64,000 nt of DNA from Chloranthus sessilifolius. Taxonomy: Eukaryota; Streptophyta; Magnoliopsida; Chloranthales; Chloranthaceae. The notes below the pieces were generated by a model. That model was not told where the DNA came from. It saw nothing but the letters and a program-made list of their open reading frames with translations, and made no database searches. This document shows, one piece after another, positions 9,057 through 31,901 of the stretch; positions within the stretch are counted from its first letter, which is position 1; each line of letters opens with the position of its first letter. The translations under genes and the position numbers were made by a program. The stretch covers positions 87,551,184 through 87,615,183 of the forward strand of contig CM037596.1 in NCBI GenBank assembly GCA_021018995.1, given 5' to 3'.

Positions 9057-9270
9057 GGCGTATGTATTACATACGCCCAGCAAATTTGGCCCCAGTTTGG
9101 TCAGGCGTATGTATTATATGCCTGACATTTTTGGGCCAAATTTGGCCGAGCGTATATAATACATACGCCCAACATAGGAAGGCCCACCACGGGAACCCAT
9201 CTTCTCAGATTCCCCCTGGTTTTCTTGAATTTCACTGTGCATAAACTGGGCGTATGTAATATATACGCCC
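9057..9270. promoter_or_regulatory. Palindrome cluster 1 (O 5' LTR)
   Basis: Four palindromes at 9057-9077, 9104-9122, 9149-9169 and 9248-9270. The first is perfect: arms GGCGTATGTA and TACATACGCC around one T. The others vary in the TATA-like centre. The cluster ends about 280 bp upstream of the LTR TATA box. The 3' LTR carries the same four at 30667-30881 in decayed form. Confidence 0.6.
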
Positions 9271-9547
9271 ACTTAGCTACAGTATCTGTCATTAAATGCT
9301 CGAATTCCTCCATCTGGTTTGACTCTTTGACCATTCCCTTGGTTAAGGTGGGTGTCTTGAGGTTGGTTGCACCCCCTTTGAGCTTATTGGCAACCCTTAA
9401 GTCACCCATGGTCTCACCCCATCATTCACCATTGAAACCAATTTTCCAAACCTCTAGGACCTTAAAAACCTAGAAAACCTTAGATGGAGGATTACTTAAT
9501 TGCCAAACCAATTAGCTCTTAAGTAACCCTCTAACCCACCTCTTCTC

Positions 9548-9555
9548 TATAAATA
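9548..9555 (+). promoter_or_regulatory. O LTR TATA box
   Basis: TATAAATA within CTCTATAAATAGAGGC, repeated at 31162-31169 in the 3' LTR. It is the best core-promoter candidate in this LTR. Confidence 0.7.
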
Positions 9556-10295
9556 GAGGCCCCCCCCCCTCTTCCCAAAGGGTTGAAAAAATTAAGGCTG
9601 GAAAGATTAGGGTGAAAGCTTGAGTTAGGAGAGAGAGAGAGAGCCCTAGTGAGAGAAAGTTCTTTTTTATTTCTTCAACAAGAATTCTAGCATACATAGA
9701 TCATCCTTTTCAACCCTTTCCAACCATTAGATCACCTCTTTTAGTTAAAGCTTAGTCCTTAGTTTCATCCCACCCTTCCTATCTACCGAATCCTATTATT
9801 AGAACCTATTCCTCTACCATTTAAGCTATTTAAAGCCATCGGAAGGACGTCAAAGTGAAGGTCTTCCATGGTGCAACAAGGGCCCGTGAGCTCCGGCTCA
9901 CCCCTCTCTTCCTCTACCTTCTTGGTGTTTCCTCCGTCCAAGGATTCAAGCCGTTATGCCGCCGAAATTTTGGTTTGACCCAAAGCTTGATAGGACCGTA
10001 TTGCCTTCGGGCAAGGGGAAGCTCGACCCATTTATTTTTATTTTTGGCCATAGATAGAGACCGCTACATGCAGGTTGATCGGGTGCCTAAAACCTTCCCG
10101 ATCGATAACCGAAGCTCCTACCCTAGAGCCTTTGGAAAAGACCGGTAAATCAGAGTCATATTTAGCACTTCGGTGCTCAAAATATTGATTTAAAGGTTTC
10201 CCGGGTCACCAAAAGCTCCGGGTGGCAACTCTACATTTTATTCCATCGCGAGTGCATCACCGCGACGGGTTCGAGAGGATCCATTCTCACACAGA

Positions 10296-10313
10296 TGGCG
10301 ACTCTGCTGGGGA
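10296..10313 (+). other. O primer-binding site (tRNA-Arg type)
   Basis: TGGCGACTCTGCTGGGGA, two bases after the LTR end. Ogre and related Tat elements prime with tRNA-Arg through a very similar sequence; the exact tRNA match was not computed. Confidence 0.8.
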
Positions 10314-10458
10314 TGTCATCCTAGCGCTTCCCCTCTTGTTGGCCTTTCTTTTTATATTTTTTACTAACCATAGCTATTTTTTTGTTCTAATTTTCAGCTA
10401 TGTTTCTTTATTTTTTGTTGTTTTTACTAACATACTCACCCCTACGATTCGGTCCTTT

Positions 10459-10630
10459 AAGTGCCTTAGCCAATTGGCGGGCCTACTTGCGCCTTTAAAT
10501 TTTAGTTTTTTACGATTTTGTCATTTAAGCCGCCTTAGCCGTTTGGCGGGCCTGCTCGCATCTACTTTCCACGTCATTTAAATTTCAGTCATTTACGAGC
10601 CTTAGCCATTTGGCGGGCCTATGTGCGCTC
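10459..10630 (+). repeat. Three-copy tandem repeat in O leader (about 65-68 bp)
   Basis: Three diverged units share GCCTTAGCC, then TTGGCGGGCCT and a TGCG/CGC segment, beginning near 10459, 10521 and 10589. They lie between the PBS and gag in a 1.5 kb leader (10314-11818) with no recognisable gene. The remainder of this leader contains palindrome cluster 2. Confidence 0.6.
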
Positions 10631-11148
10631 TTTATTTCAGTCATCATATCCCACCATTGAACGCCGACCCGTTGAGGCGGCACGGGCTTGTCATCCCCGA
10701 CCCGATTTTGGACTTAAATTCACTCCCCTTTAAAAATTTGTAATTAAAAGTGAACCAACAGTGTGGGGACATAATCAAATATGTTTTTGCGTATTTTGGG
10801 TAGTTTTTTTGGGGGGTTTAGGCGCAGATATAATTTACCTGGTTCCCAGTAAGGTTGCAGCCCTAGTGGTGATGATCCTGAAAAGAACCACCCCTTCCCG
10901 TACCTGAGAAGGCGCTTGCGCCCGAGGTATATCGGTTGGGTTGCCAATTCCAATCAAGCCGTAAAACCTGCGATGGTGAGAGCGTAGACAGCCCGAATTC
11001 AGCCGTGTATCCCTAGGAAGCGGAAAGGAGGGACCCGATAACATACACAGTAGTCCCCGGGAGCATCTCTCCTGGAAAACCAGTCCAAAAGACCCATTTC
11101 GGGCTTGCTGTTTACTGTCAAACAAGACTGGAAAAACAGCCTCTGCCT

Positions 11149-11311
11149 GGCGTATATATTACATACGCCCAGCTAAAAATCCCCAGAAATATTCAGGCGA
11201 ATATAATATATACGCCCAGCCAAAATCCCCAGATTTAAGCCAGGCGTATATAATATATACGCCCAGCCAAATCTGCTAAATTTTGGTCAGGCGTATATAA
11301 TACATACGCCC
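11149..11311. promoter_or_regulatory. Palindrome cluster 2 (O leader, before gag)
   Basis: Four palindromes at 11149-11170, 11196-11217, 11243-11264 and 11290-11311, spaced almost exactly 47 bp, so this is also a tandem array. Each has an arm GGCGTATAT (GGCGAATAT in the second) and an arm ATATACGCC or ACATACGCC, with the linker CCAG between some units. The cluster lies about 510 bp before the gag ATG at 11819. Confidence 0.65.
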
Positions 11312-11818
11312 AGTATATACTGGGTTCAAGTGGCCCGATCTGAGGCCTAGTCCCCCACCCAAGTTCCCCGATTAGCAGTATTAGTGCCCACAGTAGCCTC
11401 CTGCATCCTGTAACACCCAATATGCCCCTGCCCAGTCAAAAGAAGGTGACTTCTCATTGATTTGCTCTGGGGGATCGGGTCAGTTGCGTGGATTCCCTCA
11501 CCTTCAATAGAACGAAAGGGTTCCTTTTCGCTTCTTTCGAAGTGTGTCGGATCCCGCCGTGGGACCTACTAAAGGTGCATATATCACCCAAGACAGGAAC
11601 TTTTCTAGGGCACCAGATCATCATTCATTTAAGTAGGGGAGATAATTTTCATTTGAAAAATCTAAAAAAATAAATATATAGAAAAATCAAAATCCGTATA
11701 TACACGCACTTTCGGTGCGACCGTCACTAAGGCGACCTCAAACCCAACCCGTAGAGGAAGAACTAGGAGAGTATTCGACCCTTACCCAGGGCATTGGTAC
11801 AACACTCGTCAACAGATC

Positions 11819-13571
11819 ATGTCGAGCGCCGATACATCCCCGCCATCGTCCCCATCCCATTCCCATATAGGAGAAGACCCGATCTCTAACACCTTCACCC
11901 AAACCCCGTTCGATGTCACGGGTCCATTTGGGGCACCCGTGTTCGCATCCACCCCATCCCCCGCCCTTACATTTTCCCAACATACCCCCATCTCATCCTC
12001 TACTAAAACACCTCATTTCCCAATCGACCCATACATCCCCATCTCCCATCCATACACCCTTACCGCACCCCTACTCCCAAAGACCCCATCGGGAGCCTCA
12101 TCCCCCACCTACCTCCCACACTCCGTCCACCTCATCATCCATGCCTCCTATATCCCATATCCCACTCACCTCATCTCACATGCCCTCCACATCACATGGT
12201 CCATCCATATCCCAATAGACCCCCTTGTTTACCTAGGTCATGCCCAACTTTACCCAGGGTATCACCAACAGCCCACCATCTTCCTTAGCCATACATCCAC
12301 ACCCTCCAAGCACAACCACTCATACCCCCCATACCCAGGTCAAGCCCAATTTCATCCAACCCCCTCCGTCCTTGAATGGGCCATCACCCTCCAATCTCAC
12401 ACTTGAATCCATGCCCTCAATGGAGGACATGAGAAGAATGTATGCCCTGTGGGCTACCTCTCGGAGTCCAACATTCCAAACCCCACATCTAGGTCTCCAA
12501 AACCTCCATACCCCATTCCTCCATGACCATGCCCAACCACCCATCATTCATACCATCCAAGATTCCTCACCTCAATTCCAGGCCCAGGTCCAAGCCCAAG
12601 CCCAACAGACCCAAGCCCCCTCATCTCAGGACCAAACCCACACGAATCCTTGGGCCCAGGCCCAAACCCATCAAACCCAGGCCCAAAATCCTCACGGCCC
12701 ATGGCCCCAAGCCCAAACCCATCAGGCTCAAGCCCAGGCCCAAAATCCTCAAGGCCCATGGGCCCAAGCCCAAACCAATCGGACCCACACCCAAAACCCT
12801 TAAGACCCATGGGCCCAAGCCCAAAACCATAAGACTCAGGCCCAGGCCTCAAATCCTCAAGGCCCATAGGCCCAAGCCCAAACCCATCAGACCCAGGCCC
12901 AGAACCCTCAAAGCCCATGGCCCCAAGCCCAAACCCATCATGCTCAGGTCCAGGCCCAAGCCCATCAGACCCAGGCTCAGTTCCAAGCCCCCTAGGGCCC
13001 TTGGACCCAAACCTATCAAACCCAAGCCCAAGGCCCATCACCTTGCACCCAATACCAACAGGGCCCATTAGCCCAAAATCATACCAACCCCCACACCCAA
13101 GCCCAAGGCCCATCAACCCAAGCTTTCCAAAACCATCAAGCCCAAACCCAAGGCCCATCCACCCACACTCATCAAGGCCCGTTCATAAACCCCTTACCCC
13201 TTCACCAATACCCTTCATTCACCTACACCCCTTATGCCCCTATCCCGCCTCCAACGGAAAATCCGATCCACCCTATGCCTCAAAACCACGCTTACAGCAT
13301 CCCGCCACATCAACCACACCCGTCACCCCCAGAATATACACCCAGCTCAGCACATCATTCATCCACAAACCACTCATCCATTCACTCCCTCCCATCCCCT
13401 ACAGGCCTTGTGGCCCCACCAGGTCTTCCAACCCATCACCCCCAGGTCTAAATAGCAGGCCTCGCCCCTCACCAGTACAATGACCAACAGTACGAGAAGG
13501 ACGAGATCCGTAACAGTGGAGGAGCTGCCAGCTTCGACCCCCCTAGGCCCGTCATCGTCACACCCAGGGCC
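11819..13571 (+). pseudogene. O gag N-terminal proline/glutamine-rich region
   Basis: The ATG at 11819 opens MSSADTSPPSSPSHSHIGED, followed by about 580 codons of Pro, Gln, His and Thr-rich low-complexity protein. A conserved-looking island SMPSMEDMRRMYALW lies near 12410-12455. Frames shift between 12190 and 12260 and again near 12800, so it is no longer one reading frame. Open frames on the minus strand here are shadows of the same repeats. The region leads into the gag core with a short charged segment (SEQLKEQIDRIQKQQ). Proline-rich gag N-termini are common in Ogre/Tat; their role is not known. Confidence 0.65.
12640..13030 (+). repeat. Coding minisatellite in O gag (51/57 bp units)
   Basis: About five units begin near 12695, 12752, 12803, 12860 and 12911, alternating near 57 and 51 bp. 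Each starts with a form of GGCCCATGGGCCCAAGCCC and ends with TCCTCAA or CCCTCAA. Both lengths are multiples of three, so copy-number change would keep the frame (PWAQAQT-type peptide). The array extends as a looser GGCCCAAGCCCA-rich tract to about 13160. Confidence 0.7.
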
Positions 13572-14670
13572 GAGCCAAATCAAGGGGAAGCAGCCCCAGC
13601 TATAGTCTCAAAAGAATCAGAGCAGCTGAAAGAACAGATAGACAGAATACAGAAGCAGCAGACGAAGATGGGAGGGCTAAAGCTACATTCGACAGACTTT
13701 TCAGACTTGTGTCTGTTCTCGGATGTCCCTCTACCACAAAAATTCAAGATGCCATTATTTGAGAAATATAACGGCATTGGTAACCCCATCGCCCACTTAA
13801 AATCTTACTGTGGGGATATGTGTCAGTACGGCGGAGATGAACGACTCCTCATCAAAGTGTTCCAAAAGAGTCTAACGGGCCCTACACTGAGATGGTTCAC
13901 GTCCTTAGAACCATCCATGATAAAAACTTGGAAAGATCTGACACACTTATTCCAAGAATAGTATGTCTATAACATGGACATAGAGCCAAGGAAGTCGGAT
14001 CTGACCCGTTTGAAGCAAAGACATGATGAAACTTTTAGTGCCTACTTAGGAAGGTGGAGGGCATTGGCCGCCCAGGTGACCCATCGGATTTCGGATTATG
14101 AGCAGATTGAATTGATAACCAAGGGAGCTCTCCCAGTCATCGCGGAATTCTTGGTATATCAGCAGCAGTCCAGTTTTGCTGATTTGGTCTGAAATGCCAA
14201 CCGTTGCGAAGACGCCGTTAGAGAGGGCAGGTTGGGAAAGAGCATGGCCAACGGGGCCGCCGAGGTTTGAAAAGCTGCTGAACCAAGGATTGAAAGAAGG
14301 CCAGGGGCAGAGGTGCAGAACATCATTTATCCCTAGGTCCATACCACCCCGATACAGCTCTAGGCCGCACACCCTCCCCCAGCCCATTTCGAACAAGCGC
14401 CAAGGCCGAATAATGAACCGAGGGCCCCGTTCACCCAGGAACAGATGAAAGCACGATTCGAACGGGTCATCACGCCGTTAGGGCAATCATTAAGTGTCTT
14501 ATTGCCATTATTGCTACAAAAGGGTCTGGTCAATATACTTCAGCCTCGCCCACCACCCAATCCGATACCAAGAAACTATGACTCGAACCTGCATTGTAAC
14601 TTTCACCAGGGACCAGGTCACCCTATGGATCTGTGCTTCCCACTAAAGCACTCAATCTAGGATTTAATAG
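13572..14670 (+). pseudogene. O gag core and zinc-knuckle region
   Basis: Ogre/Tat-type gag (retrotransposon capsid). Seen: LPQKFKMPLFEKYNGIGNP at about 13735, SLTGPTLRWFTSLEPSMIKTW, QRHDETFSAYLGRWRALAAQV at about 14020, then a linker and a CNFHQGPGHPMDLC motif near 14595-14640, a variant zinc knuckle, followed by KHSI and DLIEAGKI typical of the family. In-frame stops are at about 13960, 14190, 14268, 14332, 14356 and 14658. Several stand where the family has Gln (TAG for CAG), consistent with C-to-T decay. The frame otherwise runs through the whole stretch. Confidence 0.85.
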
Positions 14671-15990
14671 AGGCGGGAAAAATTGTTCCCCCGCCACTTC
14701 CTCAAGGGCAGAACCAGAATATCCATCAGGCCCCTCTGCCACCGCATCCAGGAGGCCCCAAGCCTAACATCCACTACGTGGAAGAGGAAGAGGAAGAGTT
14801 TGACCCCTCGGATTACCTCAGCAATCAAGAAGAGTTTTCATTTACCAGGCTGAATGAGGGTGAGCCAATTGTAGGGGTAATCGAGCCGCTGTATTTAGCC
14901 GATTACTTCCCCACCCCGGCATACCAAGAGGAACCCCTAGATTTAGGGCAGTATTTTCCCACTCCCGCTCCTGCCTATCAAATCCAAACGGCCCCATCCC
15001 CGTCGCAATCATATGTATATCCGCCACACTCCCAATTTACCCCACAGTTCACACCACCTCCCAGTCACCCCACCCCATACACCATCTCACCATCAGCCAC
15101 TCCATATACCTTTCCGTCGCACCAAAATCACCCCACGCTATACACAAATCCACCAACCTCATACTACCCCACCTCATACACACCCCCAAATCTCACCGCC
15201 CAGCATACTACCCTGCCATCCCCAAACCACCTCCCCCAATACACAACTCCACCATCCTTAAATCGCCCCGCCCCATGCACGACTCCATCATCCCCGATTT
15301 ACCCTGTTTCATCCACGAACCCATCATCGCCCCATCATGCCACCCCGATTACAAACCCTTCGTACCAGTACCCCCTACTTCACCCTACCCGTCATACCCC
15401 TATCACCCCGCTCCACCCGCACCTCCGACATTTCCCAGTCACCCTATCCCAGTCACACCCCACCATCCCTGCGCTATTTTGCCCCTAATCCAGCACCACC
15501 CCCATCCAAACAAACAACCCCTCACCCACTCCCCTTATCACTCGCTCCCAACCACCACTGGTCTTACCATGCCCCGAAAATGCTTGCACAAACCCCCTCC
15601 ACACCCTCAAACCCAACTTCCCCAATTCTCGCCAATACCATTACCCCCCCTATTGGAGTCAATCTAGTTGGGCCCAAGAATTCGACATACCCAGCCCAAT
15701 CCGCCCCAGAATCACCAAGCACTCCCTTCCTCATCCCCGAAACCCACCTATGACCCGCATCAAGTGCAGTTAAGTTATGAGCAGATGGACATGAATGCTA
15801 GTCGCGATCGGGAAGAGACTGTCGAATTTATCACCCGATCAGGCAAGATTTCTACACAGCCAGAAGCATCGGGGGCCGGTAGAGTAGAAGAGAAGAAGAA
15901 AGAGCAAGCCGCAGGGAACCCCTTTGAAAAAATGGCCAGAGAACATGTGTTGGAGACACAGCTCAAGAGGACACCCACACATATTACTGT
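14671..15990 (+). pseudogene. O gag-protease linker, acidic then proline-rich
   Basis: After the zinc knuckle come PPPLPQGQNQ, an acidic stretch (VEEEEEEFDPSDYL, near 14780), three similar short segments with DYFPTPAYQ, LGQYFPTPAPAYQ and SQSYVYPP, and then about 250 codons very rich in Pro, Thr, His and Ser to 15770. It closes with ETVEFITRSGKI and NPFEKMAREHVLE before the protease. Frame changes occur near 15290 and 15670. The proline-rich part is much longer than the family normally needs, and no enzymatic motif is seen in it. Confidence 0.6.
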
Positions 15991-15997
15991 CTGAGAT

Positions 15998-16617
15998 TTG
16001 CTGATCACGTCCCCGCTCCACTTTCAAGCCTTAATGGGAGCACTCAAAGACGCGCATGTTTTCGCCCACGTAACCCTAGACGAGGTGGGAGAGATAATTG
16101 GGCAAGTATTGGCCTCAAATTCCATCTCATTCACTGATGCGGATCTGCCGCTCGAAGGGAATAACCACTTTGGCCCCTGAATATAATAGTGAAAGTAGGA
16201 AACCTGGTGGTGCCGTTGGTCTTGATAGACAACGGGTCGGCATTGAACATGTGCCCTCTAAGGACGACAATCAAAATCGGTGTAAACCCCAACACCTTTC
16301 GGCCATCTATAACAAGCGCCAGGGGATTCGATAACACCAGGAGAGAAATCATAGGAGAAGTAGACCTCGACCTGATCATCGGGTCACAAACCTTCACTGT
16401 CCCCTTCCAGGTGATGGACATCAAGTTTACATTTAATTTACTATTAGGCCGGCCGTGGCTGCATGAGATTGGAGCAATACTGTCAACTCTACACCAAAAA
16501 CTCCGATTCATCTCAAGCAGAAGAATCGTCACCATCGTGGGTGAGAGTAGAGAAGACAGGAGTGGAGTGCTCTGCATATTGAGAATCCAAAAGTGCTTGA
16601 TATGCCGCATACAGTAG
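15998..16617 (+). pseudogene. O aspartic protease
   Basis: Retropepsin-like protease that cleaves the Gag-Pol polyprotein. Upstream, LLITSPLHFQALMGALKDAHV and the following 40 codons form the usual leader. After a stop and frame change at 16178-16188 the catalytic part reads VLIDNGSALNMCPL, with the active-site Asp in the D-N-G-S form seen in Tat elements, and then NLLLGRPWLHEIGA, the conserved GRPW loop. The active site is intact but the frame is broken before it. Confidence 0.85.
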
Positions 16618-17078
16618 AGGACACTGATCTCCATCAATTTGAGTATGACTTCTCAGCCATTACCCTTGAGCCGACTGAAAAAACCCCTGCCAAAACTGGA
16701 GGAGCAACGGAGGCAGCCGTGTTCATGCTCCACAAATGGGGCCACCAAAAGGGGAAGGGTTTGGGCCCACGCCTTCAAGGAAGAAGAGACCCCGTCAGGG
16801 CTAAGGGGCAGCAAACCAAATTTGGCCTGGGCTACAGGCCCGATGAAGAAGTCAGAGAGGCCAAAGAGAAGATAAGGGCCGCAACAGTCGCCAGGGCCAG
16901 GGGAATCGACCTGGAAGAAGAGCCTCCGGCCCGGCCCCACATCCGCCAAACCTTTGTAAGTGTCGGGGTGGTAAAAATTGATCTGAATGGGGAGACGAGG
17001 ATAACTCCACACAAACTTGCTTCCACCCACCCCACTAACCCTTACATCACCCCCCAGACCTCGAGGTGGACTTGGTAG
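16618..17078 (+). pseudogene. O G-patch domain segment between protease and RT
   Basis: In the frame opening at 16593, after QFEYDFSAITLEP, the segment AVFMLHKWGHQKGKGLGP, then LQGRRDPVRAKGQQ and FGLGYRP (about 16718-16850) shows the glycine spacing of a G-patch: a hydrophobic start, KWGHQKGKGLG, and a closing GLGY. G-patches bind RNA or stimulate DEAH helicases. In Ogre/Tat-type polyproteins a G-patch between protease and RT is known, but its role is not. The region then runs through EKIRAATVARARGIDLEE to a stop at 17078. Confidence 0.75.
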
Positions 17079-18568
17079 CCCTCTCCTTATTTGAGGAGGA
17101 AATCCCCGGGCCCACCCATTAGTCTAGCACTAGCCACTTTAGGCCCACCCAAACCTTCAAAGACAGGGTCCCAGAGGATCCCTCCATAAACATGCTGAGG
17201 GAGGGACCGCAAAAGCCTACCGATGCCGTTTTCGACCAAAGAGGTAAAGGCTGCCAAATGCTGTGAATATGGCACCGGCTCTCCAAAAAAAAACAACCTA
17301 TAAGAAGTGAGGTCTGCCTCTGGGGCACTCTACCCTGTATATATAGAGATCCACCTCGCCAGGGGCTGACTTCCGAAAAATTACAAAAAACCATAAAAAT
17401 AGAAAAAATACCAATTCCAAAAATATTGTCCTTAAAAATTCCTAATAAAATTGAAAACGATGTCGTGATACCCGTCCCACGCGAAGCCGATCCCTTCCCT
17501 GTAGAAATACGAGAAGAGGTAGGAGTCGCGAGTCTGGAGGAGGAAGGTCAAATCAATGAACTCCCCAATGAGCTCCTCAAACAATTTGCCGATTTTGAGC
17601 ATGGCCCCACCCCAATCGTCGAAGAGACAGAGGACGTCAATTTGGGCACCGAAGAGGTCCCTAGAATCACCAAAATTAGAATGTCGCTGTCCCCTGCGGA
17701 GAGAAAAGGTATGATAGACTTCCTCAGGTCATACCAAGACGTCTTCGCATGGTCGTATAAAGACATGCCTGGTTTGGATACCGATCTGGTTGAACATGAG
17801 TTGCCACTCTACCCTGATTGCAAGCCGGTTAAACAGAAGCTGAGACATCTCCGACGTGAATGGATGTTGAAAGTCAAGGACGAGGTCATTAAGCAATATG
17901 ACGTGGGTTTCCTCATGGAATCCAAGTACCCGCAGTGGCTGGCCAATATCGTCCCCGTACCAAAGAAAGATGGGAAGGTTCGAATGTACATTGATTTTCA
18001 GAATCTCAACAAGGCGAGCCCTAAGGATGACTTTCCATTACCCCACATCGATATCTTGGTCGATAACACTGCTAAGCACGGGATGCTTTCTTTCATGGAT
18101 GGGTTCTCTGGTTACAATCAGATTAAGATGGCAGAGGCCGACCGAGAGAAGACCGCGTTCATCACTCCCTGGGGAACCTTCTGCTACAAGGTGATGCCAT
18201 TTAGGCTCAAGAATGCTGGGGCAACCTACCAGAGAGCAATGACGGCCCTATTCCATGACATGATGCACCGAGAGATCAAAGTGTATGTCGATGATATAAT
18301 CGCCAAATCGCCAGAAAGGGAAGACCACTTGGTAAACCTTCAGAAGTTGTTCGAGAGGTTAAGAAAGTACAGGTTGCGGTTGAATCCCCAGAAGTGTGCA
18401 TTCGGCGCTATGTCAGGAAAGCTATTAGGTTTTATCGTCAGTAGGAGAGGCATCGAGGTCGATCCGACCAAGATCAAGGCCATCACTAAAATGCCACCGC
18501 CGTCTACAGAGAAAGAGGTCAGAGGCTTTTTAGGTAGAATCCAGTACATCAGCCGGTTCATTACATAG
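17079..18568 (+). pseudogene. O linker and reverse transcriptase
   Basis: 17079-17425 still reads as decayed polyprotein linker with stops. From 17426 a 380-codon frame is open. Linker motifs ITKIRMSLSPAER, DVFAWSYKDMPGLD and HELPLYPDCKPVKQKLR lead into fingers (VPVPKKDGKVRMYIDFQNLN), palm (SFMDGFSGYNQIKM, CYKVMPFRLKNAGATYQ) and the catalytic YVDDIIAKS at about 18283-18309, then thumb LLGFIVSRRGIEVDPTKI. Usual family residues are replaced in places (FRLKNAGA for FGLKNAGA). A TAG stop at 18566-18568 separates it from RNase H. YVDD with IIAKS is typical of Ogre/Tat, unlike FMDDFS in the Athila copies. Confidence 0.9.
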
Positions 18569-19090
18569 TTAACTCCGATATGCGCACCAATCTTCAAACT
18601 ACTGAGAAATGACTCACCACTTGAGTGGAATGAATACTGCCAAGTTGCATTTGACAAGATCAAGGGTTACCTCCTAAATCCTCCAGTATTGGTACCACCT
18701 GTACCTGGTAGACCCCTGATAATGTACCTGTCCACGACAGAGTTTTCGATGGGATGTGTTTTGGGGCAGCACGACGAAATAGGAAGAAGAGACTAGGCCA
18801 TCTACTACCTGAGCAAGAAGTTCACTGATTATGAGACGCGCTACTCTCATCTGGAGAAGGCATGCCTAGCGCTTGTGTGGGCTACTCAAAGACTTCGACA
18901 CTACCTGTTATCCCAAGCCATCCTACTTCTAGCACGAATTGCTCCCTTGAAGTACCTATTCGAGAAACCTGCTCTCACTGGCCGAACTGCGCGATGGCAG
19001 CTATTGTTATCTGAATTCGACATCACGTACATCACTCAAAAATTGATCAAGGGGCAGGCACTCACCGATCATCTTGCTGAGAACCCTCTG
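18569..19090 (+). pseudogene. O first RNase H (decayed)
   Basis: The original gypsy RNase H. Readable: MYLSTTEFSMGCVLGQHD, where the usual first catalytic Asp region is STTEFS and appears non-catalytic; then AIYYLSKKFTDYETRYSHLEKACLAL and, near the end, QALTDHLAENP. One TAG lies at about 18796 in place of a Gln-like codon. Loss of catalytic residues here is expected in elements that acquired a second RNase H, where this domain acts as a connection. From 18875 onward the frame is open into the next domain. Confidence 0.8.
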
Positions 19091-19177
19091 CCTGACTATG
19101 AGCCTCTAAGGATTGAATTCCCCGATGAGGACATCTTGTTCATGACAGAAGATGATACAGAAGAAGCAGAGGAATCA

Positions 19178-19560
19178 TGGGTAATGCACTTTGACGGGGC
19201 ATCGCATGTCGAAGGCCAAGGAGTTGGTGCCATCCTGATTTCACCAAAAGGATCCCATGTACTGATCTCTATCAAGCTCAACTTCCCCTGCACTAACAAC
19301 ATGGCTGAGTATGAAGCTTGCACCGCCAGTCTACAGGCAGCTCTCGATCTGAATGTAACTCACCTTCATGTTTTTGGCGATTCACAGTTAATCATATGTC
19401 AGACGAATGGTGACTGGAAGACGAAAGACGAGAAACTGATCCCCTATCATGAACACCTCGAGGATCTAATAGCTTGCTTCCAAGATGTAACTTTTTCATA
19501 TGTCCCCCGGATAAGGAATCGCTTTGCTGACGCATTAGCAGCTTTGGCGTCAATGATTGA
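19178..19560 (+). CDS. O second, archaeal-type RNase H domain (aRNH)
   Basis: Within an intact 371-codon frame (18875-19990) a complete second RNase H follows the first. The acidic residues are visible in order: Asp in HFDGAS, Glu in MAEYEAC, Asp in HVFGDSQLI and Asp in RFADALAAL. The glycines of GVGAILISPKG fit the first strand. Such archaeal-type RNase H domains are known as an acquisition of the Tat branch and presumably replace the activity of the first domain. The domain itself has no stop, although the polyprotein around it is broken, so it is annotated as a partial coding region of a dead element. Confidence 0.88.
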
Positions 19561-20917
19561 AATCCCCTATGGTGTTGAGATGAAGTCGATCATGATCGAG
19601 CAGAGGAATGAGCCGGCCTTCTGCCTCCAGATTGAGGAACCTACAAAGCCTGATGATGAGTTTCCTTGGTTCTCAGACATCAAGAATTTCCTCAAGACCC
19701 TAACCTTCCTAGAGGGTACATCCAGGATAGACCGACGAACCATTCAACGCTTAGCAGCAGGTTACGTCATTTGCGAGGAATGCCTCTACAAGCGATCATA
19801 TAATAATATCTTACTCAGGTGCCTTACTGAAAGTGAAGCGGTCAGTATGATGAAAGAAATCCATGAAGGAGTATGCGGAGCCCACATCAGCGGTCACATG
19901 CTCGCTAAGAAAATTCTGTGGCAGGGATACTTTTGGACCACCATGGAATCAGATTGTTGCAAACATGTTCAAAAATGCTACAAGTGTTAAGAACACTCCA
20001 GTCTAATACACGCTCCTGCCATTGATCTTCACTGCATGACCACTCCTTGGCCATTTATTACATGGGGCCTTGACGCTGTCGGAATGATTAATCCAAAAGC
20101 ATCGAACGGACATCGGTTCATCCTCGTCGCCATTGAATACTTCACAAAGTGGGTAAAAGCGGTGTCATATGCCAACATCACGGCCAATCACGTTGAGAAG
20201 TTTCTCAAAAATAGTATTGTGTGCCGATTCAGAGTACCCAAGGATATCATAACAGACAACGGCACGAACTTTTCAAATAAGCGCATTCGAGACTTCTGCG
20301 AGCAATACAAGATCAAGCATCATCGATCATCCCTGTATCAGCCTCAAACTAATGGAGCCGTGGAAGCTGCGAACAAGACAGTCGTCCGCATCCTTGAGAA
20401 AATGGTCGTCACTTATCGAGATTGGAGCGAAATGCTTCCATTTACTTTGTGGGCCTATAGAACATCGATCCGTACCGCTACAGGGGCAACACCATTCTCC
20501 CTTGTGTATGGAACCGAGGCCGTCCTCCCGGTAGAGGTTGAAGTACCCTCGCTCCGAATCCTCATGGAATCAGGCTTACTCGAAGCAGAAAGAGAAAGAT
20601 CACGCATTGATCAACTGAACTTACTGGACGAAAAGAGACTCTTAGCCTTATGCCACACTCAAGTTTACCAGGGGAGAATCGAACGCGCTTACAATAAACG
20701 TGTCCGCGGTTGAGATCTAAAGGTAGGAGACATTGTGTTGAATAAGATCTTCCCATCCCTCCATGCCGATCTAAGAGGAAAGTTCAAGCTAAACTGGGAA
20801 GGACCGTACGTCATTCGAGAAGTGCTGTCGGGATGCGCCATCCGCCTCACCACCATGGACGGAGATCATCTTCCTCATCCCATCAACGTTGGATATGTCC
20901 GACAGTTCTACTCTTAG
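19561..20917 (+). pseudogene. O integrase
   Basis: DDE integrase that joins the cDNA to the target. The N-terminal zinc finger reads HEGVCGAHISG then HVQKCYKC at about 19860-19988 (HHCC). The core has FITWGLDAVG (first Asp) near 20065, IITDNGTNF (second Asp) near 20255, and NGAVEAANK (Glu) near 20360. The C-terminal part includes LKVGDIVLNK, FKLNWEGPYVIREV (GPY module) and ends with YVRQFYS and a stop at 20915-20917. Stops at 19988 (TAA) and 20711 (TGA) interrupt it. All catalytic residues remain, so only these nonsense changes disable it. Confidence 0.9.
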
Positions 20918-22498: not shown

Positions 22499-23993
22499 TC
22501 AGGGGCAGGAACCACGCTTCAAAGCACTGATCTCTGCAAGAAGAGAGTCCTCACAAGCATTTCGATTGGTCAACCACCTACTATGAAGACTCTTTTGCCT
22601 CCTCCGCGAAGCGTCAGCTGCACTACGAGACTCAGTCAAAAGCCCAGTCAACCGAAGAACCTCGCTCTCAGCCGTACAGCTCTCACCTCCGCCATCTTGT
22701 CTTTGGTCCTTTCCTTCCCCAAAGCCTCAGTCAAAGCTAGATTCTCTGTAAAAAGAGACTCAATTCTAGTCCGGAGCACCGTTTCCTTGTATGGCCAAGG
22801 TCCTGTCTCTATCGCATCTACCGAAATCGGGTTAGGGGCAGGTATGCTCTCAGATGCCAGCCAAACCTCGTAATCAAAAGAGGAGACGCCCCCCTGAACC
22901 AAGCTACACATATGCACCGATTGGCAGGTCCCCTAGAGTGCTGCTATGCGATCTAGGTCACTGAGAGAACCCCGTGAGAATATCAGGGAACACAAGGGCG
23001 GCCTCACAGTGTACGGCACGTGTTGGGTATATCCAAATTGACGAAGCACCCCAGATGGGAAATAGTAGGTACTACCAGTCAACCCCAAAAGCGTGATACC
23101 CTCACAATCTCGAGAGCGGACAATCGGAAAGGTGCCGTCAACCGAAGTTGCGGATCAACTCGCATCGGATAGCCACAGGCTCGGTTCTTGATGCTCCCAT
23201 GGGGCGACCTCGAGTAGTGTCGAAAACCCGGGCACATCCGCTCTTACCAAGCGGAATCTCGTCAGCCCCATGATAGCCAAATGCTCTCCTAGCCAAATCT
23301 GAATGAGGTGGACTCCATGAAGAATCCCAACCCCGGCCCGAGGCGAGCATCGAACCTCGATACATCTCAGCCAAGACTAGGTGCACCAGTGAGCGGCCTC
23401 CCTCCAATTCAGTCAAAACATCGCATAACCCGAGGGAAAATGTCTCGCCCCCGGTAAAGAAGAGAACTTTGGATAGCAAATAAAGGGCAAAGGCCTTCAC
23501 ATTAAAAGGATCCCGGACCGGCAACTTTTGGAGACTTGAGTCACCAAAAAGTTCTCTCAGGAATTTCACCGAACACCTAGTGGGCCTACCGGCAAAGCCC
23601 TTCTCATACCCACCCTTTTTCAAACCAAGAACCGCGTAGACCGCCTTTGCGTACCCCGGTTTAGGCACCACTTTGGCAAGCCCTCGATGCATCATCAAGC
23701 CGGTGATAGAGGCTAGCTCCTCCAAGGTTGGGGTGAGCTCCCTGGACCCGAATATAAAGACATGAGCCCTATGATCCCATGACCCTAAAGCCGCCTTTAG
23801 GAGGTCGAGCAACAAAGGGACAACAAGGAGAGAGGAAAGGCAGGATAACCCGAGGCGATCCAGAGTAGCGAGCTCGCCCTCAGTGAAGCTAGGGCACCAC
23901 TTTTGCCAAAAATTGGGCCCCGAGTCCAAACAGGGAAGTACACTCACTAACCCCATCCCTCGTATGAGAATTTGGACCGAGAAGCGGGTCCAT
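22499..23993 (-). pseudogene. O antisense gene 2: DUF7745/plant-mobile-like protein
   Basis: The minus-strand frame from 23956 opens 272 codons: WQKWCPSFTEGELATLDRL, a Leu-rich segment, then WDHRAHVFIFGSRELTPTLEELASITGL, the hallmark of plant DUF7745/PMD-related proteins (FG, E-L-x-P-T-x-E-E). A second block has NVKAFALYLLSKVLFF and SLVHLVLAEMYRGS. After a frameshift near 23140 it continues with GITLLGLTGSTYYFPSGVLRQFGY, a stop at 22933-22935, FDYEVWLASES, a Leu/Glu-rich probable coiled coil (ESLFTENLALTEALGKER), another shift near 22665 and an end at 22499. The start may instead be the ATG at 23993 (MDPLLGPNS). It lies antisense to pol. Its function is unknown. Confidence 0.7.
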
Positions 23994-24010
23994 AGACGTA
24001 CAAAGATGTC

Positions 24011-24019
24011 CTATATAAA
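24011..24019 (-). promoter_or_regulatory. Possible TATA box for antisense gene 2
   Basis: On the minus strand TTTATATAG lies 20-60 bp before the two candidate start codons and about 160 bp downstream of palindrome cluster 3. The short distance to the ATG makes this only a candidate. Confidence 0.35.
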
Positions 24020-24178: not shown

Positions 24179-24343
24179 GGCATACATAATATATACGCCA
24201 AGGCAAAATTCTAAATTTATTTGTCAGGCGTATATATTATATACGCCAGTACAACGTGGCAATTTTTTTTGCCAGGCGTATGTATTATCTACACCAGGGC
24301 AAAATTTCAAAATTTTTGTCTGGCGTATATAGTATATTCGCCC
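24179..24343. promoter_or_regulatory. Palindrome cluster 3 (5' of antisense gene 2)
   Basis: Four copies at 24179-24199, 24227-24247, 24275-24295 and 24322-24343, with a period of about 48 bp as in cluster 2. The second is nearly perfect (GGCGTATATA around TT to TATACGCC); the others have decayed arms. It lies 190-390 bp upstream of antisense gene 2 and just beyond the end of antisense gene 1. Confidence 0.6.
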
Positions 24344-24773: not shown

Positions 24774-27139
24774 CTAATCCTGGGCAGCCCCCTTGGACTT
24801 CTTCTGGCGTCGGGTCGCGCTTTGAAAGGTATGGGTCTCCCCCACTCGAGTCCACGCCTGAGAGATGCGGCCAAGCAGAGAGCGCTACTCCTTTTCACGA
24901 GCACGCTGCACAAGCACACGAAGGGCCATCAGTTGGGGAAACAAGCAGAAAGTAAATATGAGGATGACTAGATACGGTCAACATTCACTCGCCACCTCAA
25001 CCTCCCTAAGGCCTGCAATGTTACGGTAATACTCGGCTTGGTTTACGGCCGACTCATAATCCTATAGCAAAAAGATAAAGAGAGAGGTATCAGTCACACA
25101 GGCCATCGACATAATCCAAGAAAACAGAAGAGCAAGGTAACAAGGAAGAGATTACCCCAGGGATCAGCTCAGGGGGTGGAATTCGGATAGCTTCAGCGGA
25201 TATGCGTGCCTTCTCAGCCACATCAACACACATACGCGCCAGAAAGGCATCATCCAAGCGCTTAAAGGTTCCCTGGACCTCAGTCGGCGAAATACCAAAA
25301 GAACTAGCACCGGAAGGGTCGGAAGGTCTTGCACTAGTAGCCTCACAAGGAACAGCTGTCTCATCCCCCTCATCTGAATCATCACCCTGTCCCAACTACA
25401 AGAAGAAACAGTCTTTGTTCAAGTAAAAGGGCGATTAAGGTAATCATATGAAAGGTTGCTAATAGAAAGAGGAAAGAATATTACCTGAGATCGCAGACCA
25501 CCAAAAGCCAAAAAGTTGGCACCGGGCACGAATCGGGGCAGCAGTGAATGATAGGGCAGAGACTCATACCACAACTGATATCCCCCAGGAAAGAGGAGGT
25601 CATCAATAGGGACCCCGTAGTGGAGGAAGCGAGCAGTGAGCATTTCGATAGAACCCTCGGGAGCCAATACATCATCTGGAGGAGCTTGGGGCACGACAAA
25701 AAGGGGTCGATACTGATGAACCACCCTCTCTCCTAAGTAATAGGCCCTAGCCCAGGACCCATAGAAGAAAACAATGCGCCGATCTAACAAAAGGCGAGAG
25801 GGGCCCACGGAAGCCAGGTTCTAGAAGGGGGATCCAATAGGGATCAAAGATGACCTGCTCAACAAAAAGAGGAGGGATTTATACATTTGGTCAGAACCCA
25901 CAGCATAAAAGAGCTATCAAATTTGCAAAGAGAGAAATTGTTATACCTGCTCTGGGATCAGCAGATCAAACTAAGAGCGCAACCCTAACTCCAAGTGCTT
26001 CATACCTATGTCCCGGCGGCAATTTGCATGCCAATTGCTCATAAGGGGGAATGTGGGAACTTCGGACAGAAGCAGAGGGTGACCAGGTTGGAAATGCAGA
26101 TACCCCCACACCTGAGAAAGCAAGCAAATAAAAACAAATATGCAAAAAAGAAGAAGAAGGGGGTAACGAATTGGAACCAAATGATAAATTACCTCAAGAG
26201 CGGGCCAGAAGCCCATAATGGAACTGGAGTCCCCAAGAACGGCTCGCACCAAGCTAGACATGAGCACCGCGTAGCCAGCACCTCCCCAATCGAGCCGATG
26301 TACGGTGTCTCAGTTCACCATAAGACTGAGTAGGGACAATGAGACCCGCCCTCCACTGGTGTTTGAAAGGAGAGTCTTGCCGAGGAGGAACAGCAGAGAA
26401 ATGCGGGCCAGCATCAGTGCACGTTCTGGCTCGAGATAGATGGCCGCATCAGGTTGGCCGAGGTCCACTAACTCGTGAGGCTTGAACAAATCCACCAGCC
26501 AAGATAACTTGACTTCGGAACCACAAACATTCCCAGAGGTCAGGTAGGCCCCTATCAGCCGAGTCACCTCCTCCCTATCAAGCGTGCGGACAGGTATCAC
26601 TGGCACCCCTCCAAAACGAACCCCAGTGATCATGGACCAGTCTATGGGCGTGAGGGTCATCTCAGCCATGGCCATGTGAAATGTCATGGTCTCGGGGCAG
26701 AAGCGCTCTATCAGGGCCTTCAGATAGGTCATGTCAGCCCTCACAGCGGGGCATGAAATGAAGTCCCCAAAACCAGCTTGGGCGAGCAGGTCCTTCACCA
26801 CCTGGGGGAGATAAAGCACGAGGCGCTGGAGGTCGAACCAACCACCCCGAAACATAATGTGTGGAAGGGGATGCAAAAAAGGCATCTGTCAAATAGGAGC
26901 AAAGTGGTATAATGAAGGCATCAAAGGAAAAGAAAAAGCGCTCATCTGTTTACCTGACCAGCGATCCTAAAGTTGGAAATATGGGTATACTGGTAATGAA
27001 GGAGGCCAGTGCAGGCGGCTATACCTTGCATTTCGTACCAAGGTTGGGAGGAGCGCTGTGAAACAATGAACTGTTCCCCGTGAGGACCATAGGCCATCTC
27101 GGGCCCCTCCTGTGGACCCTGCCCTTCGTAGTCAGACAT
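24774..27139 (-). pseudogene. O antisense gene 1: plant mobile domain (PMD) protein with introns
   Basis: Eight coding exons are readable on the minus strand: 27139-26954, 26885-26193, 26111-25947, 25854-25485, 25395-25156, from 25061, and a last exon ending at 24774. Introns 26886-26953, 26112-26192, 25855-25946, 25396-25484 and 25062-25155 all begin GT and end AG (68-94 bp). Exons 2-3 give the PMD signature: FCPETMTFHMAMAEMTLTPIDWSMITGVRFGG, then DWGGAGYAVLMSSLV and, across the junction, WGYLHF. PMD proteins are plant nuclear proteins related to MAIL1/MAIN and are often carried by transposons. The C-terminus has a basic RRQKKSKG. Breaks: a TGA in exon 2 near 26300, a frameshift in the exon at 25485-25854 (370 bp, not a multiple of three), a TAG and a lost acceptor (AA for AG) at the last exon. 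Confidence 0.82.
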
Positions 27140-27141
27140 CT

Positions 27142-27948
27142 GAAAATATGGAACACATCAGTCTGCTAAAAAAAAAGGGGGGGGGGAGAATAACAAAAAA
27201 GGTGCACTAATCCATCATAAAAAAATGAATGAAAAATGAATGGTGATGAGTAATGAGGGAAGTAAAAAAGAGGGGAGCATAGGCCTAAAGAACCACATAT
27301 ACCGAAAAAAAAGAAAGAGAGAAAAATGCATTACAAAAGGGAAGAACATCAAGCATTCCAAACCAAAAATAGAAAGAGAAAAGTAAAAAAAAAATGCACA
27401 AAAATAAAATAAAATAATATATGTGCACTAATCCATCATAAAAAAAAAAACAAACAAACATAAAAAAGGGGCATCACATATATAATCGTATTAAAAAAAA
27501 AAAAAAAAAAAAAAACCAAAAAAGGGCATCACATATATAAAAAAAATAACAACAAAAAAAGAGAGGAGAGCATCACATATACAAAAAAAAACAACACAAC
27601 AAAAATAAAGGGGGCATCACATATATAATCATAAAAAAAAAACAAAACAACAAAAAAAAGGGGGGCATCACATATACAAAAAAAAAAGAGAGGAGAGCAT
27701 CACATATACAAAAAAAACAACAGAAAAAAAGAAGAGCATCACATATACAAAAAAAAACAAAAGAAAAAAAGAAGCATCACATAATAGAAAACAAGGGAAG
27801 CATCACATAATAGAAAAAAAAAAAGAGAGGAAAACATCATACAAAAAAACAAACAACAAAAAGGAAGAAGGAACATCAAGCAAAAAAAAAAAACAAAACA
27901 AAAAAATACAACACAACATTATCAAAATTCAAAGGAAAGATCGATTAC
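27142..27948 (-). other. Probable leader intron of antisense gene 1, filled with A-rich tandem repeats
   Basis: On the minus strand a donor AAG/GTAATC at 27949/27948 and an acceptor TTTTCAG directly before the ATG at 27139 (or TTTTTTAG near 27165) bound an 800 bp stretch. It contains at least ten diverged copies of a unit built on GCATCACATATA followed by an A tract (plus strand, about 27430-27850). No gene is seen in it. The presumed first exon lies at about 27949-28130. Confidence 0.5.
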
Positions 27949-28168
27949 CTTCAATGGGAGAAGAAATAGATCCAAAATCGACGGAGAATAAATGTCCCTT
28001 GATCCGCACACGCAACCCCCGGTATTAGAACTCAGGAAAAATCAAATGCCAAAATCCTAAGGGGCTGTTCTGAACTTGAGAAAGGAGGGAAGAGGATAGA
28101 GTTTGAAAGAAGGGGGGCCCCTTTTGTGCTCGGGCTCGGACAGTTTTAAAAACTGCCAATTTTGGTTA

Positions 28169-28278
28169 GGCGTATATAATATATACGCCCGGCCATTTTT
28201 CGCCAATTTTGGTCAGGCGTATATATCCCGGCCATTTTTTTGTTGCATTTTGGTCAGGCGTATATATTACATACGCCC
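28169..28278. promoter_or_regulatory. Palindrome cluster 4 (5' of antisense gene 1)
   Basis: Copies at 28169-28190 (arms GGCGTATAT and ATATACGCC), 28216-28229 (half deleted) and 28257-28278, spaced 41-47 bp. It lies 40-200 bp upstream of the presumed first exon of antisense gene 1. Together with cluster 3 this puts a cluster 5' of each antisense gene. Confidence 0.55.
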
Positions 28279-28924
28279 GACTAAAAGTGGCAGTTTTAAA
28301 ACTGCCCGGCCATTTTCTTTGGCTTTGAGGCCCGACGGACCCCCTATGCTACGGACCAAGGCCTAGTCCCTCTTAGAAACCCACGTACCATCAAGCAATG
28401 GTGCACGCATCCCCAAATGGCCCTTCGAGCTCTCTTCGATTGGCCAAAAGGGACCGTGCTACAATAAACGGATCTAGATCTGTAAGCACCCGTTGAGTGC
28501 TCTATAAATCCATAAAATCAAAAAAGGAGAAAAAGAAAATGCTGAAAAATGACACCAGTTCCCAAGGGAGCGTCGCAACGACTGTTTGCCCCTTTCCAAG
28601 AGCCGTATTAAATCAATGCGGAATGATCGGGTTCACCCGAAAGTTCTCAAACCCCGTTTTACACAGGGACACCTCATGCCTGACCCGGCAGGCAAATGAA
28701 CTCATCCATCACTGGTCTCTCCTGGGAACATACACCTAGCCCAAGATATTCCCCAACAGAGGTCGAGACTTGATCTGGCAGGCAAACCAAGGACCTACCA
28801 CCGGAATGCACACGTCCTTAAGGCATCTCAACATGGCAGGTTGATCTACCTAAGGGTACTTGCAAAAATAAAAACAGTTTGAGCATGCTCAAAGTCTTGA
28901 ACTGACATGTGCAAAAAAAATAAA

Positions 28925-28960
<36 letters not shown>

Positions 28961-30272
28961 AGAAAAAGAAAAAAAGAAGAAGGTTTGGAATAACAACATG
29001 TTGTTGTATAGTGAAAATCCTGAGTAGGTTGACCCCACCTTCCATGTTTTGGTTATGATCATCCACCTTCGGATCTATGTTGCCCAAGAATATACCCGAC
29101 TTCAGACCATTCGAAAACTCTATTGTCAGTCGAAACTGACCCGTCAAAAATGAAATTACAACCAACCAAACTATGTGCAAACATACAAACCAAAGGGCTC
29201 ATTCTCTTTTATTTCCTTTTACACAGGCTTAAAACCTGCATAGGCACGGTGTCCCTGTTGAATGTACGCACTTGCGTCTGGGTATTCGCAGGATGGTCGT
29301 TTGTCCTCATAAATTGTACTTTAGGGTCGAGGCTTCCGTTCGTGCCTATTTGCTGCTTATCGCCCGTGTCTGTCTGTGTATAGTTAGTAAGATGTGATTT
29401 CGTTAGGAACGGAGGCTAGAATTGATCATCTATTTCGATGGATGTTTGGTTCTAACCCGATCTTTTTTAGCTTTGTCTCAAGTTAAGGCACTCCGGTTCA
29501 TGTGAATCAGGAACACCTTGCTGCCGGAAGGAGCACATCCCCAAGGTGTACCCATCCCCGGAAGCGCGCACGCATTCTTAAAGCGTATCAACTGACATTT
29601 GATCCACTTAAAGAGTTGTGCAAGAATAAAATTGCGAGAGGTCCTTGAGCTTTACTTAGAGGCCTCGAAATAAAAGAAAATTTAGAAAAAGGAAACACAA
29701 AAAAAAATTGACTTTGAAAATGGGCATGCATTCCCAAGAAGTGTTGCGACATCAATATTCTCTCCACTCGGGTAAGTCATGTTAAAGCAACCTTGAGGTT
29801 GATGAGTTTGCCCAAAGACTCTGAGCCTTACCTAGGTAAAGGCACCCGTGGCCAATCCAATGGAGCAGTCAATACCCCATAGAGTTGGACACATTGTTTA
29901 GGCCTTCGCTTCGTGTACTTCGCGTCGATCCTGAAGCATAGATCGATCATCCCGTTTCATGGAAGCTGTCTGATTTAGATTAATACTGAACATCACAAAT
30001 CTATAATTTCCCTCAGGAAGTGGACGATATCCTGGTTAGCGGGCTTACACTTTTTGTGATCATCGCAGTTATACCCAGTAATGTCGCAATGCGCTTGCGG
30101 ACTGTTAGCTTTGAGGTACGGACGATATCCCGAAATGAGAGGGCTTACGTATACTCACCATCACCATGAATGTTTAAGAATTGAGTTGAACCAGGCGGAC
30201 CCATCAAACGTGCCTTGGACCTCTTCGGATGTCTCTTATCTTTGGCATCCGATCATTAGTGATCGAATACCA
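28279..30272. other. O 3' region before the PPT, non-coding
   Basis: No gene was recognised in 2 kb. It contains an (AT)n run at about 28929-28957 and diverged repeats of a segment with TGACCCGGCAGGCAAA or TGATCTGGCAGGCAAA (28680-28790). Another recurring segment is GGACGATATCC (30023-30130). Open frames are short and low in coding character. Confidence 0.5.
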
Positions 30273-30283
30273 AAGAGGGCATT
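30273..30283 (+). other. O polypurine tract
   Basis: AAGAGGGCATT directly before the TGTAGACACCC start of the 3' LTR; its position and purine run fit the plus-strand primer of Tat-type elements. Confidence 0.65.
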
Positions 30284-31901
30284 TGTAGACACCCAAATTC
30301 GGCCCAAGGCCCGATCAGTCTATACTCCAAAAGAGATGCACCCCTGTGCTTCCGATGGCACCTGTGAACCCTTGGAAATCTATCCAGACCTTTAGGAATC
30401 ACCTAAAACCCATTAGAACCATTCCCCCCTTTGAGATCACCCCTAAACCCTAGGATCCCTTCCCGGACCCAACTTAAACCCTTCAGAGTATTTGATGGGA
30501 GGAGAGCCATAAATTTTTATACAGACCACTACTAAGGATGATCCATATACCATTGGAAAGAGGACTTCTCCAGCTTTCCAACAAGCCAACGATCACCCAA
30601 TTTGGAGTTGTGGTTCAAATGTTATGGCTGTTTGAAGTTTCACATAAAATCATGACTTTTTGCTCAGGCGTATGTATTACATATGCCCAACAAATTTGGC
30701 CCCAGTTTGGTCCGGGGTATGTATTATATACGCCTGACATTTTTGAGCCAAATTTGGCTGGGTGTATATAATACATATGCCCAGCATAGGAAGGTCCACT
30801 GCGGGCACCCATCTTCTCAGATTCCCCCTGGTTTTCTTGAATTTCGCTGTGCATAAACTGGGCGTATGTAATATATACACCCAGCTTAGCTACAGTATCT
30901 GTCATTAAATGCTCGAATTTCCTCCATCTGGTTTGACCCTTTGACCATCCCCTTGGTTAAGGTGTGTGTCTTGAGGTTGGTTTCACCCCCTTTGAGCTTA
31001 TTGGCAACCCTTAAGTCACCCATGGTCTCACCCCATCATCCGCCATTGAAACCAATTTCCCAAACCTCTAGGACCCTAAAAACCTAGAAAACCTTAGATG
31101 GAGGATTACCTAATTGCCAAACCAATTAGCTCTTAAGTAACCCTCTAACCCACCTCTTCTCTATAAATAGAGGCGCCCCCCTCTTCCCAAAGGGTTGAAA
31201 AAATTAAGGTTGGAAAGATTAGGGTGAAAGCTTGAGTTAGGAGAGAGAGAGCCCTAGTGAGAGAAAGTTCTTTTTTATTTCTTCAAGCAGAATTCCAGCA
31301 TGCATAGATCATCCTTTTCAACCCTTTTCAACCATTAGATCACCTCTTTTAGTTAAAGCTTAGTCCCTAGTTTCATCCCACCCTTCCTATCTACCGAATC
31401 CTAGCATTAGAACCTATTCCTCTACCATTTAAACCATTTAAAGCCATCGGAAGCACGCCAAAGCGAAGGTCTTCCATGGTGCAACAAGGGCTCGTGAGCT
31501 CCGGCTCACCCCTCTCTTCCTCTACCTTCTTGGTGTTTCCTCCGTCCAAGGATTCAAGCCGTTACGCCGCCGAAATTTCGGTTTGGCCCAAAGCTTGATA
31601 GGATCGTATTGCCTTCGGGCAAGGGGAAGCTCCGCCCATTTATTTTTATTTTTGGCCATAGATAGAGACCGCTACATGCGGGTTGATCGGGTGCCTAAAC
31701 CCTTCCTAATCGATAACCGAAGCCCCTACCCTAGAGCCTTTGGCAAAGACCAGTAAATCAGAGTCATATTTAGCACTTCGGTGCTCAAAATATTGATTTA
31801 AAGGTTTGCCGGGTCACCAAAAGCTCCGGGTGGCGACTCTACATTTTATTCCATCGCGAGTGCATCACCGTGACGGGTTTGAGAGGATCCATGCTCGCAC
31901 A
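30284..31901 (+). repeat. O 3' LTR (1618 bp)
   Basis: Full-length partner of 8670-10293, from TGTAGACACCC to GGATCCATGCTCGCACA. Four palindromes at 30667-30687, 30714-30734, 30760-30782 and 30860-30881 correspond one to one with the 5' LTR but have different base changes in their arms. The TATA box is at 31162-31169. Confidence 0.95.

Follow-up and report, generated by a model that had tools for sequence, protein, structure and literature searches.

A clustered palindrome before the sense and antisense units of an Ogre-type retrotransposon of Chloranthus sessilifolius: a candidate protein-binding site

Why does one short palindrome recur before both the sense and the antisense units of a single retrotransposon? 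The question is raised by a 64,000-nucleotide stretch of Chloranthus sessilifolius contig CM037596.1, here called the window. The window contains a long terminal repeat (LTR) retrotransposon, element O, with gag and pol on the plus strand and two antisense genes, gene 1 and gene 2, which encode proteins with a plant mobile domain (PMD). An earlier sequence-only reading of the window reported about 18 copies of a TATA-centred palindrome in five clusters. We propose that the palindrome is probably a two-fold-symmetric protein-binding site, through which one trans-acting factor would control the sense and antisense units together.

The palindrome, its geometry and its copies

The site is a 21-bp sequence, GGCGTATRTA-W-TAYATACGCC (R, purine; Y, pyrimidine; W, A or T). 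Element O carries 18 full copies and one half site, the half-deleted copy at 28216, arranged in five clusters (Table 1), as had been counted before. The symmetry and clustering reported earlier hold, but the form of the palindrome is corrected here: it is odd, with two 10-bp arms around a single base, which is A or T in 17 of the 18 copies. The chief position of tolerated variation is R8/Y14, mismatched in 7 of the 14 window sites outside the 3′ LTR. Beyond these sites, the best match in the window has six mismatches, and other near-palindromes form no comparable clusters.

The clusters of the LTR and of gene 2 are each located upstream of a separate TATA-like box. The gag cluster precedes the first long open reading frame (ORF) ATG by 0.5 kb. 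A convincing separate TATA-like box for gag or gene 1 was looked for in the sequence, and none was found. The claim that a cluster lies 5′ of every gene fits these positions, with the LTR TATA box at 9548, the gene 2 box at 24019, and the gene 1 splice donor at 27949 and ATG at 27139; the gag cluster lacks a convincing promoter.

We scanned the 2.17-Gb host genome for the site, using the reversed pattern as a control. The genome-wide motif scan, which the sequence-only reading had asked for, yields 29,806 copies with at most two mismatches and 2 matches to the control, far beyond chance. The half-sites are rigidly spaced: one base separates them in 11,392 exact copies, versus two to six bases in 23. 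The central base is G or C in 189 of the exact one-base-centre copies. A protein that binds as a symmetric dimer would require such fixed spacing.

Near-perfect dyad symmetry would also be expected if an RNA or DNA structure, a hairpin or cruciform, were selected for dimerisation, packaging or as a silencing trigger; full-length sense RNA would contain all sites except those of the 5′ unique (U3) region. The exact one-base-centre copies comprise 8,687 with A8/T14, 713 with G8/C14, and 959 and 1,033 of the two mixed kinds, whereas independent half-sites, at a G frequency of 0.15, would give about 8,231 A/T, 256 G/C and 2,905 mixed copies. The symmetric classes are thus in excess (G/C, 713 versus 256; mixed, 1,992 versus 2,905), but the excess is confounded by descent, and the G/C copies among the matches listed often resemble the first U3 site. 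Moreover, the 1,992 mixed copies pair R8 and Y14 as G-T or A-C, outnumbering the 713 with a G/C pair, and the mismatches in half of the window sites mentioned above speak in the same direction. Selection for structure, including the hairpin-forming RNA offered earlier as an alternative, is thus disfavored, and we consider it very unlikely.

Spacing between sites is also regular. Among 125 neighbor intervals shorter than 160 bp, 103 measure 46–48 bp and 15 measure 100–101 bp, which bears out the 47–48-bp period noticed before; the count covers sites with at most three mismatches in the window and in loci L005–L072, and includes the gene-1 interval of the window twice, via L023. Distances of 47 and 100 bp correspond to roughly 4.5 and 9.5 turns, a half-turn phasing that was seen post hoc and is not used as evidence. 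The period might be a by-product of tandem repetition, whereby a 47-bp module was duplicated by slippage or template switching and kept by copying alone. Spacers of different clusters indeed share some similarity, and tandem arrays are described as common in Retand elements (PMC11963269). However, the spacers are more diverged than the 21-mer, both in the window itself and in the gene-1 promoters of most sisters; the identical 21-mer occurs in several unlike contexts, and the spacing of half-sites is rigid genome-wide. The by-product explanation is therefore unlikely.

The copies that were sampled belong to one family. All eight sampled sites, located on four contigs, align with the O family, three with the LTR and five with the gene-2 promoter; this small sample was drawn from 50 listed of the 189 G/C-centre copies, including some near contig ends. 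Similarly, each of the 18 stretches taken around listed sites on contig C1 corresponds to some part of O. On these stretches, the palindrome appears to be restricted to the O family.

The distribution bears on the origin of the presumed binding factor. In a special case of the protein-binding site, the palindrome would be a captured host transcription-factor site through which a host activator is brought to every promoter, with the PMD proteins uninvolved. Stress-response boxes recruit host activators in other plant LTRs, and the U3 sites of O are positioned upstream of the TATA box. In addition, an unrelated palindrome, AATCGATTAATCGATT, which occurs 19,867 times in exact form in the genome versus once for its reversed control, forms an array in an LTR-like insertion without a shown PMD of its own, so that palindrome arrays need not accompany PMD genes. 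On the other side, a captured host site would be expected to occur outside the element too, whereas the sampled sites and stretches, few as they are, all consist of O-family DNA. We regard a host factor as somewhat unlikely.

The AATCGATTAATCGATT array itself (L059:241-690, contig C9) lies in a 2.5-kb TG..CA insertion with the target-site duplication (TSD) TATGG, which extends from L063:3186 to L059:2212 and interrupts another family's PMD gene. The array was considered as a second pair of PMD gene and palindrome, and was rejected because it belongs to the insertion.

Retention and conservation in sister elements

Sister LTRs are 82–92% identical to the LTRs of O. All five clusters are present in three elements (L005/L006, L007/L008 and L015/L016, each pair treated as one element, for which the two ends and the two antisense genes are all covered), one gag cluster being degenerate. 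The elements L009/L010 and L013/L014 have lost all or much of the antisense genes and kept the LTR and other sites. Locus L020, in which a pol stretch is 73% identical to that of O, has three sites before gag. Since loci L001–L022 were found via the palindrome itself, its presence there is no test of retention.

Retention was tested in 29 loci (L024–L052) that were chosen by a protein search with the gene-1 exon and extended by 1.5 kb of flank each. Twenty of the loci are usable; in the other nine the flank stops before or at the cluster, or there is no promoter match (L033, L035 and L036). The site is present at up to four mismatches in 19 of these 20 gene-1 homologs and at up to two mismatches in 17. 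The sequence-only reading had staked its claim on sister elements not keeping the genes while lacking the clusters, and these promoters agree with it. In an alignment of 17 gene-1 promoters, the mean pairwise identity is 0.960 in the palindrome columns and 0.853 in the flanks (non-CpG columns, 0.977 versus 0.867; CpG columns, 0.884 versus 0.717), and such conservation is reached by 6 of 20,000 random block pairs; four rearranged rows (L031, L042, L046 and L048) had been dropped after the alignment was seen.

Several observations weigh against a shared protein-binding site. When all 21 gene-1 rows are kept, the identities are 0.852 and 0.820, and 6,764 of 20,000 random pairs are equally conserved. 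Locus L046 is a sister that carries gene 1 without the cluster. The LTR sites, compared using one LTR from each of 12 elements (12 of 18 aligned LTRs), are slightly more conserved than the rest of the LTR (non-CpG columns, 0.919 versus 0.869), with 1,725 of 20,000 random sets equally conserved. Seven of the 12 LTRs have the same change in the first U3 site, at 9057, and three further LTRs differ there in other ways. Several sisters have a degenerate gag cluster, which by eye is the least kept of the clusters. Between the two LTRs of O, the four sites have accumulated six substitutions and a 2-bp indel, at least the rate elsewhere, although such divergence is as expected after insertion. The conserved spacing could stem from the copying of one module. 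Furthermore, the palindromes themselves fit the TATA pattern that we used and no other convincing box was found at gag and gene 1, so they may serve as core TATA boxes, above all in front of these two units. Finally, no O palindrome is present in the 2.5 kb upstream of eight PMD loci of other families (0 of 8, L055–L062), where the best match has eight mismatches.

Single sites are thus dispensable, and the support from conservation is strongest at gene 1. The comparison of arms with flanks suggested earlier gives a clear difference there with 17 rows, almost none with 21 rows, and a weak one in the LTR. Of the earlier proposal, the symmetric cis element common to sense and antisense units stands as the best-supported reading, with its clusters retained, while its prediction of conservation over the flanks has a mixed outcome.

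Element O and its antisense genes

The features of element O are listed in Table 1. The plus strand encodes, in this order, a G-patch, reverse transcriptase, RNase H (RT_RNaseH), a second RNase H (RVT_3) and integrase (H2C2/rve). When ten ORFs of O were scanned with Pfam, a set that covers the small ORFs only in part, the domains detected were of PMD and polyprotein kinds only; the gag-region ORF from 13452 has a Retrotrans_gag similarity below the cut-off. The position of an additional RNase H (aRH) between RNase H and integrase is the pattern of the Ogre lineage, although aRH is also described in Retand, and an extra PMD ORF is reported in 57% of Ogre elements (PMC6317226). Element O has both the second RNase H in this position and the extra PMD ORF, and from its domain order and PMD ORFs it is an Ogre-type (Tat clade) Ty3/gypsy element.

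Table 1 Features of element O in the window
Feature	Position	Strand	Details
Cluster 1, four palindromes	9057..9269	.	Sites 9057, 9104 (2-bp deletion), 9149, 9249; U3, about 280–490 bp upstream of LTR TATA box
Cluster 2, four palindromes	11149..11310	.	Sites 11149, 11196, 11243, 11290; period of exactly 47 bp; in the leader before gag
Cluster 3, four palindromes	24179..24342	.	Sites 24179, 24227, 24275, 24322; 47–48-bp period; 160–320 bp upstream of gene 2 TATA-like box
Cluster 4, two full palindromes and a half site	28169..28277	.	Full sites 28169, 28257; half site 28216; before gene 1
Cluster 5, four U3 palindromes of 3′ LTR	30667..30881	.	Sites 30667, 30714, 30761, 30861
5′ LTR	8670..10293	+	TG..CA ends; 5-bp TSD TGTCC at 8665-8669 and 31902-31906
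LTR TATA box (TATAAATA)	9548..9555	+	Seen in both LTRs
gag region	11819..13961	+	Long ORFs starting at ATG 11819
pol: G-patch, reverse transcriptase, RNase H, second RNase H (RVT_3), integrase	16551..20713	+	Pfam
Antisense gene 2, PMD-like ORF	23138..23956	-	PF10536
TATA-like box of gene 2 (TTTATATA)	24012..24019	-	Antisense
Antisense gene 1, PMD	26310..27139	-	ATG 27139; ATG exon ends 26954; next exon from 26885; splice sites predicted from sequence
Gene 1 promoter and 5′ untranslated exon	27949..28168	-	Splice donor G|GTAAT after 27949; predicted gene model
3′ LTR	30284..31901	+	93.9% identity to 5′ LTR

Both antisense genes match the PMD family PF10536: the gene-1 ORF 26310-26888 with an E-value of 5.9e-16, above the cut-off, and the gene-2 ORF 23138-24010 with an E-value of 9.7e-5, below the curated cut-off. 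The gene-1 splice donor, GGTAAT, is present in 24 of 29 sister loci, and TATAAAG occupies the matching gene-2 position in all three aligned sisters. The ratio of nonsynonymous to synonymous substitution rates (dN/dS) of the PMD exon is low, with a median of 0.16 and a range of 0.07–0.55 (105 pairs from 15 stop-free copies), a value biased downward since the set, the window plus all 14 stop-free loci chosen by protein search, consists of the closest protein matches. A structure prediction for the gene-1 PMD exon, based on 15 close homologs, was unsuccessful, with a mean predicted local distance difference test (pLDDT) score of 37.

A protein search with the gene-1 exon outside the host genome gave no match at E <= 0.001, and one against the Protein Data Bank (PDB) sequences none at E <= 1. 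The palindrome pattern has 0 matches in the viral contigs scanned, and none of the integrase loci sought as outside relatives of O was confirmed. All comparison is therefore within one genome. The host genome contains three stop-free full-length PMD matches (C2:182456779-182457852, C6:2320605-2321663 and C2:182470824-182471918), which may be MAIN/MAIL-like genes of the host.

Smaller repeats accompany these units. A shorter, GGCAGTTTTAAAACTGCC-like palindrome flanks the gene-1 cluster on both sides, at 28288-28307 and about 28138-28157; in the sisters L006 and L008, GGTAG...CTACC is found on the far side of that cluster, with both arms changed. An array of TATATGTGATGC-like units (27457-27770) lies inside the long T-rich intron of the 5′ untranslated region (UTR) of gene 1. 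A tandem repeat of 51-, 57- and 108-bp units (12627-12990) is located within the long ORFs with which the gag region opens. The G-patch domain (16551-17078, E 1.2e-6) is part of the polyprotein region ahead of reverse transcriptase; in some retroviruses, a G-patch follows the protease. An Rfam snoR71 match on the plus strand (41037-41143; 56.7 bits, gathering 40) overlaps the minus-strand ORF 40640-41599.

Among the PMD loci of other families, the seven without the AATCGATTAATCGATT array (L055–L058 and L060–L062) have CACCCAC motifs upstream of the PMD. In L055, L056, L057, L060 and L061, CACCCAC is also seen in the form of a short palindrome (CACCCAC-TTAT or ATAA-GTGGGTG).

Known parallels and a candidate reader of the site

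In the mechanism that we propose, a dimeric DNA-binding protein would read GGCGTATRTA half-sites separated by one A/T base. Its operators would form arrays, spaced by 47–48 bp and sometimes by 100 bp, within the promoter in U3, in the leader of gag and in the promoters of both PMD genes. The bound factor, presumably the same for all clusters, would act on transcription or chromatin state and set the activity of all transcription units of the element jointly.

A comparable arrangement is described in Sireviruses, Ty1/copia elements with many copies of palindromic repeated motifs (RM boxes) upstream of the LTR TATA box; some have further boxes 5′ of an additional env gene, and the motif is conserved while its flanks diverge (PMC2829016). 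The O palindromes are similarly clustered, both ahead of the TATA box of the LTR and 5′ of an extra gene. However, Sireviruses have a sense env gene and mostly a CGG-CCG core, whereas O carries GGCGTAT..ATACGCC, has antisense PMD genes and bears the sites also before gag; its order of reverse transcriptase, RNase H, second RNase H and integrase, together with the PMD, places it in the Ogre type of Ty3/gypsy elements and not among the Sireviruses. Retand and Grande elements carry antisense ORFs as well (PMC11963269, PMC7264820), but those encode another protein domain, and the portions of these sources drawn on here do not present their tandem repeats as palindromic sites in promoters. No description of palindromic sites in Ogre promoters was found among the titles and abstracts listed from an open-licence library. 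Given the Sirevirus parallel, we view the architecture of O as a variant of a known one, of the same kind as the Sirevirus palindromes and in a different superfamily.

A second parallel concerns the reader. In Arabidopsis VANDAL elements, VANC proteins bind tandem motifs of their own elements and lift silencing; VANC21 binds the 9-base motif YAGTATTAY and demethylates (PMC5735166, PMC10398659). Like these motifs, the O palindrome is short, family-specific and tandemly arranged in noncoding regions of its own element. Binding and demethylation by the element-encoded reader are shown for VANC21, whereas in O the putative reader would be a PMD protein.

Gypsy elements encode the PMD proteins of clades A1/A2, which have a common origin with MAIN and MAIL1, silencing proteins of the host; what the domain does is called undetermined in the report on these clades (PMC5418596). 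Genes downregulated in main and mail1 mutants are enriched for the promoter 'DOWN' motif (PMC7156037), so that DNA motifs may mediate the action of PMD proteins; the sections of these two reports used here mention no target site of a Gypsy PMD. We tentatively put forward the element-encoded PMD protein as the first candidate for the factor, as the PMD genes are conserved cargo and the sites are located before the PMD genes themselves; a host transcription factor comes next. Two observations count against the PMD candidate: the eight PMD loci of other families lack the O palindrome, and the AATCGATTAATCGATT array occurs without a shown PMD. It is equally conceivable, by analogy with VANC, that O contains a self-contained circuit, in which the Gypsy PMD would bind sites in the LTR, the gag leader and its own promoters, and relieve or set the silencing of the element and of its PMD-less relatives.

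If so, the PMD circuit would be a retrotransposon counterpart of VANC, and would reveal what PMD domains read on DNA. A rigid site, present in thousands of copies and positioned before PMD genes, offers a concrete target for the function of Gypsy PMD proteins. With one type of site before sense and antisense promoters, the question of why the antisense genes are carried becomes testable, even if the factor belongs to the host.

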